64,000 nt of DNA from a virus, in IMG/VR virus record IMGVR_UViG_3300025647_000030, positions 1 to 64,000 of that record; one strand, 5' to 3'. Positions within the stretch are counted from its first letter, which is position 1. Every line of letters starts with the position of its first letter. Shown piece after piece: positions 100 through 45,849 of this stretch. Below the pieces are notes generated by a model. It searched no databases. It worked only from the letters and a program-made list of their open reading frames with translations, and had not been told where the DNA came from. Position numbers and translations under genes: made by a program.

Positions 100-684
100 C
101 TAATAAGGTTTCTTACCTTCAAACCAGAATCCAATATCTTTAAATGTTTTACCTATAACATTTGGACCTATTGATTTGAGATATTTTGATTTACTATAAT
201 TATTTATATTGATAATATGCTCTGATTTTTTACACCAATTCTTTACACATTTAACAGATATATTATAATTATTTTTACAATTTACGACTTTACCCCAAGG
301 TGTGTGGTAATAACCAACAAAAGATGGATTTTTATCCCCTGATGTTGATTGTTGTTTTTTCCCTTTATTCCACGGTGTTTTTCCTTGTCTAGATTTTGAC
401 ATTTTTAATCTGGTTATTTTAGATGGCTTATGACCTTTTTTAAATTGAGTATCAGACATTTTTAAAAGATTACCCTCTTTAATATCACCTCTTAAACGAT
501 GTATTGAAGCATGGTCGTCTGGATGTAGTGCTATAAGATTTTTAGCATCATCCGAACCACCAGCACATCTAGGTACTATATGATGAACATGAAAGCCTTT
601 AGGAATCTCCCAGTTAGGTATAAATTGACGCCAATAATTAACAAGATTCTTCCGGTGGGGTTTTGTATAAATATTATTAGACAT
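100..684 (-). CDS. Free-standing HNH homing endonuclease with NUMOD3-type tail
   Basis: This 194-residue protein carries an HNH (beta-beta-alpha-metal) nuclease core: HHIVPRCAGGSDDAKNL at about residues 34-50, with H35, N49 and H58 as likely metal/catalytic residues. Residues 85-112 hold a lysine-rich segment (TRLKMSKSRQGKTPWNKGKK) typical of NUMOD3 DNA-binding motifs of phage homing endonucleases. A start codon at 684 follows an AGGAG ribosome site. It lies between two minus-strand virion genes, directly upstream of the gp54-like gene and downstream of a hairpin terminator. That is the usual situation of a selfish endonuclease inserted between essential genes in T4-like phages. The cleavage site cannot be read here. 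Function as a homing endonuclease is inferred from family and position. Confidence 0.85.
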   Translation of the reverse strand: MSNNIYTKPHRKNLVNYWRQFIPNWEIPKGFHVHHIVPRCAGGSDDAKNLIALHPDDHASIHRLRGDIKEGNLLKMSDTQFKKGHKPSKITRLKMSKSRQGKTPWNKGKKQQSTSGDKNPSFVGYYHTPWGKVVNCKNNYNISVKCVKNWCKKSEHIININNYSKSKYLKSIGPNVIGKTFKDIGFWFEGKKPY

Positions 685-11929: not shown

Positions 11930-11985
11930 TAAATTTAACAGAGCATATCATATGAATAATTTAGAAAAATTAATAGGAGAATATC

Positions 11986-12027
11986 ATGCCCAGTGTACAC
12001 CGATTAGGTGATTTTTGCACTGGGCAT
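11986..12027 (+). promoter_or_regulatory. mRNA stem-loop from start codon to bypass take-off site
   Basis: ATGCCCAGTG (11986-11995) is perfectly complementary to CACTGGGCAT (12018-12027). A nested 4-bp stem CACC/GGTG lies inside (11998-12001 with 12007-12010). The stem starts at the AUG and ends on the base before the GGT take-off codon. It uses CCC and GGG, codons that look rare in this AT-rich phage, which suggests selection on RNA structure. It could stimulate bypassing, control initiation, or both. Confidence 0.75.
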
Positions 12028-12282
12028 GGTTAACTAGGTTGTTTCCCAACTAGAATGAATGATGAAGCAAGTGATGATGTTTTTGTCAATGACATAGGTT
12101 GGCATCGTGAAGATGATCATTGGGTTAACCATTGCTGTGCTATATCTTGTCATGATTCATATTTGCTAGCCGGTTCTTCTACTGTTTTTGTCAATGACAA
12201 ACAGGCGGCTAGAGTTAATGATCCAGTTGCTTGTGGTAGTTTCTGCTTAGATGGATCGGAAAATGTATTCGCCGGAGGATAA
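11986..12282 (+). CDS. gp5.4: PAAR spike-tip protein (gp5.4-like) with in-frame TAA, probable translational bypass
   Basis: The start at 11986 has a strong AGGAG ribosome site (11975-11979). The first 15 codons read MPSVHRLGDFCTGHG, then TAA (12031-12033), CTA, GGT, and the frame continues CFPTRMNDEASDDVFVN to a double stop. If ribosomes move from GGT 12028-12030 to the identical GGT at 12037-12039, the product is a normal 95-residue PAAR protein (T4 gp5.4 has 97). It would contain GHGCFPTR and VFVND twice (residues 28-32 and about 63-67), as well as CCAISCHD. PAAR tips coordinate zinc with three His and one Cys; the first candidate, H14, lies before the stop, so a protein started at ATG 12055 would lack it. 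That ATG has no good ribosome site. The protein sharpens the gp5 spike. Stop read-through (three extra residues) or a broken gene are the alternatives. Confidence 0.8.
12028..12053 (+). other. Candidate bypass site: GGT-TAA-CTA-GGT and downstream hairpin
   Basis: The take-off GGT (12028-12030) is followed by the stop TAA and CTA, then the matching landing GGT (12037-12039). The landing codon lies in a second hairpin: CTAG, bulged G, TTG (12034-12041) with CAACTAG (12047-12053). The 9-nt skip stays in frame. The arrangement of matched glycine codons with a stop right after take-off parallels T4 gene 60 (GGA to GGA over 50 nt). Confidence 0.6.
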
Positions 12283-12285
12283 TAA

Positions 12286-12666
12286 ATGTCATTTTACGCT
12301 GACTTAGATTTGGATTTTTTAATGCATCCAATGAATTCAGATATTTCTAGGAAATATGATGAACAAGCAATTGCTAGATCGATAAAAAATCTAATATTAA
12401 CCAATAAATATGAAAGATTATTTAATGTGGATGTTTATGGTGGAATTTCTGCTTTACTATTTGAGCCGGCTGATATTGTTACATTACATACACTTGAAGG
12501 TAAAATTAAAAGCGTAATAAACAGATATGAACCTAGGGTTAAAGATGTTTCCGTTGAATGTTATATAAATTCAAGTGGTGATGGTGTTGATACTACTATA
12601 TTTTTTACACCCATAAATAATAGAATACCCACACAAATAACACTTTATCTAAAACGAGTAAGGTAA
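12286..12666 (+). CDS. gp25: Baseplate wedge protein gp25
   Basis: This 126-residue protein belongs to the gpW/gp25 family (T4 gp25 is 132), which links the wedge to the sheath and helps nucleate sheath assembly. The family hallmarks are present: DEQAIARSIKNLILTNKYERLFN (residues 24-46) and the glycine-containing turn that follows. An EPADIVTLHTLEGKIKSVI helix leads to the conserved RYEPRVKDVSVECY strand (about residues 83-97). The ribosome site GGAGG lies in the last codons of the PAAR gene, 3 nt upstream in spacing terms, so the two are coupled. Confidence 0.93.
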   Translation: MSFYADLDLDFLMHPMNSDISRKYDEQAIARSIKNLILTNKYERLFNVDVYGGISALLFEPADIVTLHTLEGKIKSVINRYEPRVKDVSVECYINSSGDGVDTTIFFTPINNRIPTQITLYLKRVR

Positions 12667-12672
12667 AAACAA

Positions 12673-14436
12673 ATGGCTAACACATTAATAAAACAAGATT
12701 TAGATTTTAAATCAATTAAGAAAAACTTAATTGAATATCTAAAAACCCAAGATGAATTTAAAGATTACGAATATCTTGGTTCTGCTATGAATATCTTAAC
12801 CGATCTTCTTGCTTATAATACTCATTATATGGGGTATTATGCTCATATGTTAGCTAATGAATCTATGATTGAATCGATTCTTAGAAAAGAAAATATGAAT
12901 TCGAAAGCTAAATTCTTTAATTATTTACCTAAATCTAAGAAAGCATCTAAAGCATTAGTTACAATAACTGTACCGAATCCATCTCCAAACACAAGTGTAA
13001 AAATTGATAGAGGTGAATCTTTTAACGCAAAAAGAGATAATCCAACACTATCAGATATTAGAACATTTATACTTACAGATGATTTATATATCTATTATAA
13101 CGCCGAAACTGGAGACTATACTTCAACTGAAGTTTTATTATATGAAGGTGAATTCATAACACAATTATTTAAATCTGGTCCGGAAAAACGATATGTTATT
13201 AATGATAATGATATTGATACTGACACATTAAAGGTAGTTGTTAAAGAAAATGAAAATTCTACAGTATCAACAACATATACATTGGCTGATGATTTTACAA
13301 ATATTAATGGTGAATCTCAGGTTTATTTTTTAAACTTGAACGAAAATGATCAGTATGAAATATCATTTGGTAATGATGTTTATGGAAAATCTGTTAATGA
13401 CTATTCATATATTGAAGTAACTTTCGTATCAACTAATGGATCATTAGGTAATAGTGTAACTGCTTTTAGTGCGCCAGAAGGAATTACTTCCGTCAATGTT
13501 ATTGAAAATTCAACAGATGGAACCGATGCTGAAACGCTAGAAGATTTACGACACAATATAAAACATCATTACCGCAGACAAAACCGTTTGGTTACAGTAG
13601 ATGATTTTAAAAATATAGTATTGTCTGAATATAAAAATATTAATTCGGTGAATGTTTGGGGTGGTGAAGATAACATACCAAAAGCATATGGTAAAGTATT
13701 TGTTTCAATTAAACCACTGTTCGGTGAAGTTTTGTCAAATGAAACAAATAAACAAATATTGAATAAACTTAAAAAATACACAATGGCAACAATTGAACCT
13801 GTTATTGTTGATCCAGAATATACCTATATTAATTTAGATGTTTATGTTAAGAATAACACGTTATTAACAAGTTTACGTCAGGGTGAACTGAAGAAATTAA
13901 TAATCGATGAAATAAATTATTATAATACAGAAATTTTAAATAAGTTTGATTCTTATTATTCCGATGTTAAATTAAATACAAGAATCATGTCGCTATCTAC
14001 TAGTTTCATGTCAACTTATAATAAGATAGTATTGGAAAAAAGATTCATACCAAATTTATTATCCAGTGAAACTTATTTTATATATTTTTTGAATAAAATT
14101 GATGAAACCACTGTTACATCAAATAACTTCTATTTTAGAAATAAAATTACAAAAATTGCCGATGATGGTTTAGGAAATGTAATAGCATTTTTCTATGATG
14201 AAAATAAAAAGGAATTTATTAAGTATTCAAATGAAACATTTGGTACTGTTGATTACGAACAGGGTATTGTGAAAATTTCTGATATTGTTTTCTCAAAACT
14301 TATTGAGGATGATATTAAGGTTTTTGCAAATCCAATCAATCCTTTATTCTTTGCTAAACTGAACAATATTATTTCAATAGATAATGTTCAGATTTTCATT
14401 GAAGATTATCATGGTAGAGAAAGCGAAAAATCATGA
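12673..14436 (+). CDS. gp6: Baseplate wedge protein gp6
   Basis: At 587 residues it is near T4 gp6 (660), the gpJ-type wedge protein that forms the inner ring of the baseplate. The N-terminus shows the gp6 signature: LDFKSIKKNLIEYLKTQDEF, then YLGSAMNILTDLLAYNTHYM and a helix ending in RKENMNSKAKFFNYLPKSKK. A gpJ-like segment near residues 280-310 reads EDLRHNIKHHYRRQNRLVTV. It follows gp25 with a 6-nt gap and overlaps the next gene by ATGA, as expected for an inner-wedge operon. Confidence 0.92.
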   Translation: MANTLIKQDLDFKSIKKNLIEYLKTQDEFKDYEYLGSAMNILTDLLAYNTHYMGYYAHMLANESMIESILRKENMNSKAKFFNYLPKSKKASKALVTITVPNPSPNTSVKIDRGESFNAKRDNPTLSDIRTFILTDDLYIYYNAETGDYTSTEVLLYEGEFITQLFKSGPEKRYVINDNDIDTDTLKVVVKENENSTVSTTYTLADDFTNINGESQVYFLNLNENDQYEISFGNDVYGKSVNDYSYIEVTFVSTNGSLGNSVTAFSAPEGITSVNVIENSTDGTDAETLEDLRHNIKHHYRRQNRLVTVDDFKNIVLSEYKNINSVNVWGGEDNIPKAYGKVFVSIKPLFGEVLSNETNKQILNKLKKYTMATIEPVIVDPEYTYINLDVYVKNNTLLTSLRQGELKKLIIDEINYYNTEILNKFDSYYSDVKLNTRIMSLSTSFMSTYNKIVLEKRFIPNLLSSETYFIYFLNKIDETTVTSNNFYFRNKITKIADDGLGNVIAFFYDENKKEFIKYSNETFGTVDYEQGIVKISDIVFSKLIEDDIKVFANPINPLFFAKLNNIISIDNVQIFIEDYHGRESEKS

Positions 14437-44026: not shown

Positions 44027-45849
44027 TGTTTGAGTTTAGTAAAAATGGCGGTATGATCGGAGCGACTCTAGATTATACCGATACGGACACTTACTTCATT
44101 TCAACTGGAGGAATTCCTCTTGGTGAAGTTGAATTCACAACTGCTGGCGCAACTACTTGGACTGTTCCAACTGATGTATCACTGATTTACGTTCTCTGTG
44201 TTGGTGGAGGCGGAGGTGGAGGCGGTTGTAATGGAGTAAACAACACTGGTCCAGGTGGGGGCGGTGGCGGCGCGCTACGATACGTCAATGCTATTCCTGT
44301 AACTTCTGGAGAAACTCTAGATGTTGTAGTTGGTGCTGGTGGTACAGGCGGTAGCGTGACTCCCACGGCCGGCACCGCCGGCGGCACAAGCTCACTAGCA
44401 AGAGGCGGTACAATACTTTGCAGTGCCGCCGGTGGTCAAGGTGGTGATGCGGGTGTTGCAAACGCACAAGGCGGTGCAGGCGGTTCAACGGGAACTGGTA
44501 CTGGTGGAAACGGTGGTGCTGGCGGAGTTGGTGGTGCTAACGCCGCAGGCGGTGCTGGCGGTGGAGCAGGCGGTTATTCAGGCAATGGCGGAGTTGGTAG
44601 TGCAGGGAATAGTTCTGGCACAAGTACCGCAGGAACTGGTGGCGCTGGGGGTGGTGGTGGTTCAGTCACAGCAGGTTCAGCAGGCGGTGGTGGTGTAGGA
44701 CTTCAAGGCGAAGGCGCATCTGGTCTTTCTGTTGGAGGTTCACCCGCAGGTGGTCAAGGCGGATCAGGCGGTACAAGCGCAATATCTTCACCCAACACTT
44801 CAGGTGGATTATATGGCGGCGGTGGTGGTACTATCGAAGATGATACTACTGGCGCAGGTTCAAATGGCGGTGTTGGCGCAGTAAGAATTATTTGGGGCGG
44901 TGATAGAGCATATCCTGCAACTAATACTGCCGATGGTCAAGGAACTGGAACTGGTTTAACTCCGGGAAATAAAAAGAATTCAGGCGTATGGGATATTGTT
45001 GCACACGATGATGCAACTTATATTTCTGCTGTTGCCGCTCTTCCTGGACAAGTTGCATTCACAACACCCACAACCGGAAGTTGGACTGTTCCTTCAAATG
45101 TTACATCTATCTCTGTTGTCTGTATAGGCGGTGGGGGTGGTGCTTCTGGATGTGACGGTTCTGGCACCGCGTCCGGCGGTGGTGGCGGTGGTGGCGGCCT
45201 TGGGTATGCTACTGTAGCAGTGACTTCAGGTGAATCTCTTTCTTATACTGTTGGTGCCGGTGGAACGGGTGGCGCTGGAACCGCAAACGGTGGAAATGGC
45301 GGTGACACAACACTATCAAGAGGCGCTACTGTTCTTGTTTCAGGTCTTGGTGGAACTGGTGGTCAGTCACTTGGTGATAATTCAACAACATTTGCAGGCG
45401 GTTCTTTCACTGGAGATGGTGGCGGTAATGGCGGCTCAGGCGGTGCATCGAATAACAACCAAGGCGGCGGCGGTGGTGGCGGTGCAGGTGGTTACTCAGG
45501 AATCGGTGGTAATGGTGGTACAACAAACACAGGTGTCGGCGCAGACGGTGCTGGAGGCGCCGGCGGCGGTGGTGGTGGTCAATCGACTGGTGGTACACAA
45601 AACAATGGCGGGGGCGGTGTCGGAATTTTAGGCGAAGGTGCATCTGGAACTGGCGGTGGAGTAAACAATCCCGGAACTGGCGGTTCTGGCGGAACAACGG
45701 GTTCTACTAACGGTGGTGTTTATGGAGCTGGTGGTGGCGGAGCAGAAGATGATACTAACGCTTCTGGTGGTAACGGTGGCGATGGCGCAATAAGAATCAT
45801 TTGGGGTGATGTTAGATCATATCCTTCAACTAATACGGCAGATGTATAA
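44026..45849 (+). CDS. Glycine-rich adhesin with two tandem polyglycine domains
   Basis: At 607 residues it consists of a short N-terminal attachment region (MFEFSKNGGMIGATLDYTDT) and two copies of a domain at about 33-300 and 340-605. Each begins with a beta strand (VEFTTAGATTWTVP or VAFTTPTTGSWTVP), then V/CIGGGGG. Long Gly-Gly-x runs follow, and each ends in RIIWGG/DxR-YP-TNTAD. Such glycine-rich runs form polyglycine-II helix bundles in the receptor-binding gp38 adhesins of T-even-type phages. The GC content and GGC/GGT use are visibly higher than in neighbouring genes because of the glycines. A tip adhesin for host recognition is the likely role. Confidence 0.8.
   Translation: MFEFSKNGGMIGATLDYTDTDTYFISTGGIPLGEVEFTTAGATTWTVPTDVSLIYVLCVGGGGGGGGCNGVNNTGPGGGGGGALRYVNAIPVTSGETLDVVVGAGGTGGSVTPTAGTAGGTSSLARGGTILCSAAGGQGGDAGVANAQGGAGGSTGTGTGGNGGAGGVGGANAAGGAGGGAGGYSGNGGVGSAGNSSGTSTAGTGGAGGGGGSVTAGSAGGGGVGLQGEGASGLSVGGSPAGGQGGSGGTSAISSPNTSGGLYGGGGGTIEDDTTGAGSNGGVGAVRIIWGGDRAYPATNTADGQGTGTGLTPGNKKNSGVWDIVAHDDATYISAVAALPGQVAFTTPTTGSWTVPSNVTSISVVCIGGGGGASGCDGSGTASGGGGGGGGLGYATVAVTSGESLSYTVGAGGTGGAGTANGGNGGDTTLSRGATVLVSGLGGTGGQSLGDNSTTFAGGSFTGDGGGNGGSGGASNNNQGGGGGGGAGGYSGIGGNGGTTNTGVGADGAGGAGGGGGGQSTGGTQNNGGGGVGILGEGASGTGGGVNNPGTGGSGGTTGSTNGGVYGAGGGGAEDDTNASGGNGGDGAIRIIWGDVRSYPSTNTADV

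Follow-up and report, generated by a model that had tools for sequence, protein, structure and literature searches.

An interrupted PAAR spike-tip gene in a T4-like phage, with a strong predicted hairpin and a possible in-frame ribosomal bypass

Very few genes are known to use programmed bypass. In gene 60 of bacteriophage T4, the top of a 5' stem-loop is paired in advance outside the exit channel, and completion of this structure serves as a motor (PMC5009743); sparse ribosome loading would favour refolding of this kind (PMC11194080). Stable upstream hairpins also cause forward (+1) slippage by 70S ribosomes in vitro if RF2 is left out (PMC6321510). Hops over a stop codon that keep the reading frame have been engineered in E. 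coli, and according to a 2016 review no natural in-frame stop-hop was known (PMC5009743).

The gene considered here encodes a PAAR protein, the counterpart of T4 gp5.4, which stands to gp5C as 1 to 3 (gp5C:gp5.4 = 3:1; PMC7600766). In T6SS effectors, a prePAAR segment (residues 1-16 in Tse6) completes the PAAR fold and its zinc site across transmembrane helices (PMC7773334). The T4 gp5.4 and PAAR tips are uninterrupted, whereas the gene described below shares their fold, zinc-ligand positions and PAAR-gp25-gp6 order but carries a stop codon and nine nucleotides at the prePAAR/PAAR boundary.

The interrupted gene and its relatives

The window analysed, 64,000 nucleotides with a G+C content of 33%, covers most of a viral record of 67,940 bases (IMG/VR IMGVR_UViG_3300025647_000030). 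The phage is a T4-like myovirus, in which gp48/gp53-like, gp5-like, gp25, gp6, terminase, sheath, tube, portal and major capsid genes were recognised; apart from the PAAR gene these recognised structural genes are intact. No DNA relative was found among deposited phages, and no second PAAR gene in the 68-kb contig. The PAAR gene, on the plus strand like all features of the locus given here, sits between a 2057-codon ORF and a gp25-like baseplate wedge gene (12286..12666; Pfam GPW_gp25, 3.4e-9), which is followed by a gp6-like wedge gene (12673..14436; Pfam Gp6-like_1st, 1.5e-16), a syntenic arrangement.

A first-pass annotation had described the PAAR frame as interrupted, and its coordinates proved exact. 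From the ATG at 11986, the first part of the ORF (11986..12030) encodes MPSVHRLGDFCTGHG, a prePAAR-like segment (R..D...H; PMC7773334) with H14 at a zinc-ligand position, at which a single mutant is tolerated in one T6SS PAAR (PMC10715212). Its final codon, GGT (Gly15, 12028..12030), the proposed take-off codon, is followed immediately by an in-frame TAA (12031..12033), a CTA (12034-12036) and a second GGT (12037..12039), the proposed landing codon. The second part is then open from the TGT at 12040 to a TAA at 12280-12282 (12040..12282), forming a PAAR body that begins at C16 in bypass numbering and matches Pfam PAAR_motif at 7e-16. The profile match, the conserved H14, H46, H53 and C80, and a fold match all identify a PAAR/gp5.4 protein; with TAA as codon 16, the gene is not an uninterrupted orphan PAAR ORF.

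Homologue comparison and a pattern scan gave no counterpart for the nine nucleotides TAA CTA GGT (12031..12039). Their removal yields GHGCFPTR, as had been predicted, and the homologues inspected have a junction of the same type, reading GHG-CFPPR or similar without the insert; the closest, among the matches listed, is 69% identical. A hop between matched codons, the first of which abuts the stop, restores this family junction exactly. The strong ribosome site claimed for 11986 is also borne out: the Shine-Dalgarno AGGAG (11975..11979) forms a duplex of -7.3 kcal/mol with the anti-SD, and just 5 of 39 genes have a stronger one. The site at 12055 (M21), the only in-frame internal start near the beginning of the second part, had been called absent. 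It is indeed low in strength, with 23 of the 39 genes stronger, yet at -3.1 kcal/mol it is therefore weak rather than absent.

The same nine nucleotides, TAA included, occur in two further IMG/VR contigs. Against the window, one has 5 SNPs in 12.9 kb; the other has 12 SNPs, all at 786-810, and lacks about 660 bp that hold an endonuclease. By these differences there are three separate genotypes, and the identity of the insert in genotypes that can be told apart makes sequencing error so unlikely that we regard an error of sequencing or assembly as ruled out. The three are near-clonal, too close to separate selection from recent origin. The endonuclease is an HNH homing enzyme (100-684, minus strand), encoded far from the PAAR gene and absent from a contig otherwise near-identical over about 13 kb (L035:1294-1430). 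The SNPs of that contig are confined to the edge of the insertion, beside the 660-bp stretch, a pattern that a co-conversion tract would leave after recent homing.

The check suggested at first pass, whether gap and stem are kept in the PAAR genes of related phages, found the gap, among the matches listed, in the near-clones only. Degenerate scans of viral contigs returned neither a TAA at the equivalent place in other PAAR genes nor a TAG with an RLGD-type pattern at the junction, and a pattern scan of viral contigs for nine extra bases before C-x-P gave no further PAAR. Diverged relatives with the gap were sought in viral contigs by two degenerate patterns, by TAA or TGA after DxCTGHG, and by homology (among the matches listed), and also among the genome-contig loci returned; none was found.

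An upstream hairpin and the proposed hop

The best supporting feature for bypass was absent from the first-pass annotation. RNA folding and an inverted-repeat search both point to a strong hairpin of 48 nt (11983..12030), predicted to comprise a lower stem (11983-11997 with 12016-12030), a 5-nt bulge (12011-12015) and a top stem of 4 bp (11998-12001 with 12007-12010). Within it lies a perfect 11-bp inverted repeat (11985-11995/12018-12028), which weak pairs extend to 11983/12030; the last nucleotide of the repeat's 3' arm is the initial G of the take-off GGT.

This structure is far from what the peptide or the genome would lead one to expect. The folding energy of 11960-12030 is -29.6 kcal/mol, and among 20,000 synonymous versions of the same peptide sampled from the phage's own codon usage (mean -11.1 kcal/mol, sd 2.4) not one was as stable. 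Other gene starts have a median of -6.9 kcal/mol and reach -16.4 at most, T4-like PAAR homologues in the same gene context lack the hairpin and fold weakly over the equivalent stretch (about -6 to -13 kcal/mol), and the shuffle z-score over 11960-12054 is -5.25. The hairpin employs rare codons, GGG (2.3% of Gly) and CCC (8.4% of Pro). Its region matches no known RNA family. Besides it, the strongest local folds of the window cluster in a tail-fibre-like gene (44300-45540). The stem expected at first pass in or after the gap is not significant (12031-12070, -3.3 kcal/mol, z 0.23).

Folding in steps, with the ribosome assumed to cover the 15 nt before the P codon, gives -7.8 kcal/mol at take-off, -13.6 at landing and -23.1 three nucleotides beyond. 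The top stem is predicted to be formed while GGT 12028 occupies the P site, the lower stem closing as the ribosome advances, an arrangement like that reported for gene 60 (PMC5009743). The start codon, too, is predicted to be paired within the hairpin (probability 1.0), so the structure may act on initiation, instead or additionally. A 19-codon ORF in another frame, MNNLEKLIGEYHAQCTPIR (11952-12011), has a weak ribosome site, overlaps the PAAR start and ends within the hairpin; it may be a chance frame, or may serve to open the hairpin.

On these grounds, a short in-frame ribosomal bypass that makes the PAAR spike-tip protein seems to us the single most likely reading, and one to be held tentatively. 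Ribosomes starting at 11986 would read 15 codons to GGT 12028, bringing UAA into the A site, by which time the top 4 bp of the hairpin could already form outside the ribosome. The peptidyl-tRNA-Gly would then release its codon, the lower stem would refold behind the ribosome and draw the mRNA in the 5' direction, and the tRNA would pair again at the next cognate codon, GGU 12037, 9 nt downstream. Decoding would restart at UGU and produce an uninterrupted GHGCFPTR. Since a T4 spike carries one gp5.4 at its top, hopping at low efficiency could be enough.

The elements of this reading carry unequal weight. Its support comes from the matched codons, the adjacent stop, the intact body and the hairpin; against the short programmed bypass, as the first-pass annotation had framed it, stand a gap seen in no diverged relative and the lack of the other gene 60 signals. 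By arithmetic, about one random 9-nt insertion in 64 would restore a hop between matched codons, and the landing codon is the first GGY after take-off in any frame, which supports bypass. That said, a 4-nt microhomology such as the GGTT repeat that brackets the insert (12028-12031/12037-12040) is also left around small insertions by ordinary mutation. Insertions at such microhomology match codons far more often, and the codon match alone is therefore weak evidence, the hairpin being the stronger.

A further proposal concerns origin, and we advance it with more reserve than the hop itself: a natural, hairpin-driven in-frame stop-hop would make the single-copy needle tip by means of a spring-like 5' hairpin, not a nascent peptide and take-off hairpin, and would possibly be kept because the insert shields 5.4 from homing endonucleases. 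Protection from a homing nuclease may have been a role of the gene 60 insert (PMC5009743), and by analogy nine bases placed where 5.4 is most conserved could act likewise. In T4, 5.4 is located in the "segC-gp6 intergenic region". In a Campylobacter phage, the end of a gene for a Hef homing endonuclease (Hef34; L226:1-1788) runs into 5.4. That endonuclease genes adjoin 5.4 in both T4 (segC) and Campylobacter phages suggests that the region is perhaps a recurrent homing target.

Other readings of the interruption

The plainest alternative to bypass, which we judge unlikely while taking it seriously, is a dead gene: PAAR would have been inactivated recently by a microhomology-mediated 9-nt insertion, the tip being dispensable or encoded outside the 68-kb fragment and the hairpin unrelated (a device for initiation control, or a quasi-palindrome). 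The bracketing GGTT repeat is what such an event would leave, a young null allele fits the near-clonal state of the three genotypes, and, the contig being incomplete, there is room for a second PAAR outside it. Yet the PAAR body shows no further decay, and the strength and position of the hairpin would have to be coincidence. Nor do homologues carry the scattered stops of simple decay: apart from three cases of TGA at Cys, none of the 156 others with a readable start is truncated. PAAR is moreover required for T6SS function (PMC10715212). A literature search found no test of the need for a phage gp5.4, and the first-pass description of this tip as essential is an inference.

An improbable reading is that the protein is made as two chains, a 15-residue prePAAR peptide and a body produced by termination-reinitiation at ATG 12055, which would assemble like the halves of split-PAAR effectors. 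It is thinkable because the R..D...H segment ends where the stop stands, which is also the prePAAR/PAAR boundary that transmembrane insertions occupy in effectors (PMC7773334); for the solved effector PAARs Tas1 and Tre23 the profile match begins as late as residues 24 and 20, and ATG 12055 is just 24 nt beyond the first base of the stop. Weighing against it, the SD at 12055 is weak, an ATG at 12026 (M V N stop) lies closer to the stop and would compete, the body would lack residues C16-R20, of which R20 is invariant, and the hairpin is left without a role. We know of no free prePAAR peptide. The split-PAAR effectors themselves share the position of the break, just after the DxxxH segment, but keep both halves in one chain with transmembrane helices between, whereas only stop-Leu-Gly separates the halves here. 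If the two-chain reading were true, a stop codon could create the prePAAR/PAAR split.

Read-through of the UAA, which would give GHG-X-LG-CFPTR with one residue plus Leu-Gly inserted, is more doubtful still. A three-residue insert is possible because the junction tolerates long ones in effectors of the PAAR family (PMC7773334), and the predicted protein has a mean pLDDT of 95 and TM scores of 0.84-0.90 against T4 gp5.4 and c1882. Against this, homologue comparison and a pattern scan found no homologue with a three-residue insert there, and a downstream stimulator structure is absent. UAA is usually the tightest stop, and in this phage it is the dominant one (23 of 34 genes); this usage, and the lack of any tRNA found in the window, suppressor tRNAs included, also make a reassigned TAA or suppressor tRNA unlikely.

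Two mutational origins were set aside, a repeated element (no other good copy of the insert or of a hairpin arm occurs in the window) and a single template switch creating both hairpin and insert (by eye, the insert is unlike the reverse complement of either arm's flank).

Selenocysteine is ruled out at this stop, which is TAA with the Cys codon kept. A likely case for it emerged elsewhere, in eight PAAR genes with an in-frame TGA at the conserved Cys after GHG (L134 at 1501-1782, L208, L211, L214, L218, L220, L222 and L223). They resemble the window gene in having a stop directly after GHG, but without inserted bases, so that TGA simply replaces the Cys codon and selenocysteine is likely, in contrast to the TAA, nine nucleotides and retained Cys of the window gene. 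L211 has a second TGA, likewise at a Cys position, several of the genes show a stem-loop just downstream of the TGA, and the L134 genome encodes a full-length SelB (421.9 bits, cut-off 242). A full-text literature search for PAAR and selenocysteine gave nothing on topic. From their sequences, the eight are good candidates for selenocysteine-tipped spikes.

Comparison with known recoding systems

The preferred reading, a stop-hop, invites comparison with gene 60, likewise an element of a T4-like phage. The two have in common matched Gly codons (here GGT 12028 and GGT 12037), a stop directly 3' of take-off (here TAA 12031) and a 5' stem-loop that can fold again behind the ribosome, in the present case a predicted structure. 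They differ in that gene 60 bypasses 50 nt out of frame, whereas the PAAR gene, a different gene, would bypass 9 nt in frame. Gene 60 also places its take-off codon and stop in a stem-loop, for which there is no sign here (z 0.47 over 12020-12070 and 0.23 over 12031-12070). Its nascent chain counts 46 residues before take-off and bears a KKYK signal about 30 residues back, while the PAAR peptide has 15 residues and no Lys. An SD-like motif stands about 6 nt before the gene 60 landing site; GGTTAACTA precedes the one in the window. The element is therefore not of the gene 60 type, and is anatomically like a stop-hop with a 5' spring.

If the hop is real, it would be the first natural one across an in-frame stop, and would place recoding in a virion part of which each particle needs a single copy. 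Whether refolding of mRNA alone can drive ribosomes forward could then be tested in a minimal system of one stop, two GGU codons and a 48-nt hairpin. The nearest anatomical parallel is with the synthetic E. coli stop-hops (Weiss 1987), as far as these are summarised in a review (PMC5009743): matched codons flank the stop, the frame is kept and the whole stretch specifies one amino acid, as it would in the PAAR gene only if the hop occurs. Equivalent positions of the matched codons are 9 nt apart here, and against those constructs, as summarised there, the PAAR gene is natural, has a strong 5' hairpin and would spend 12 nt rather than 9 on a single residue.
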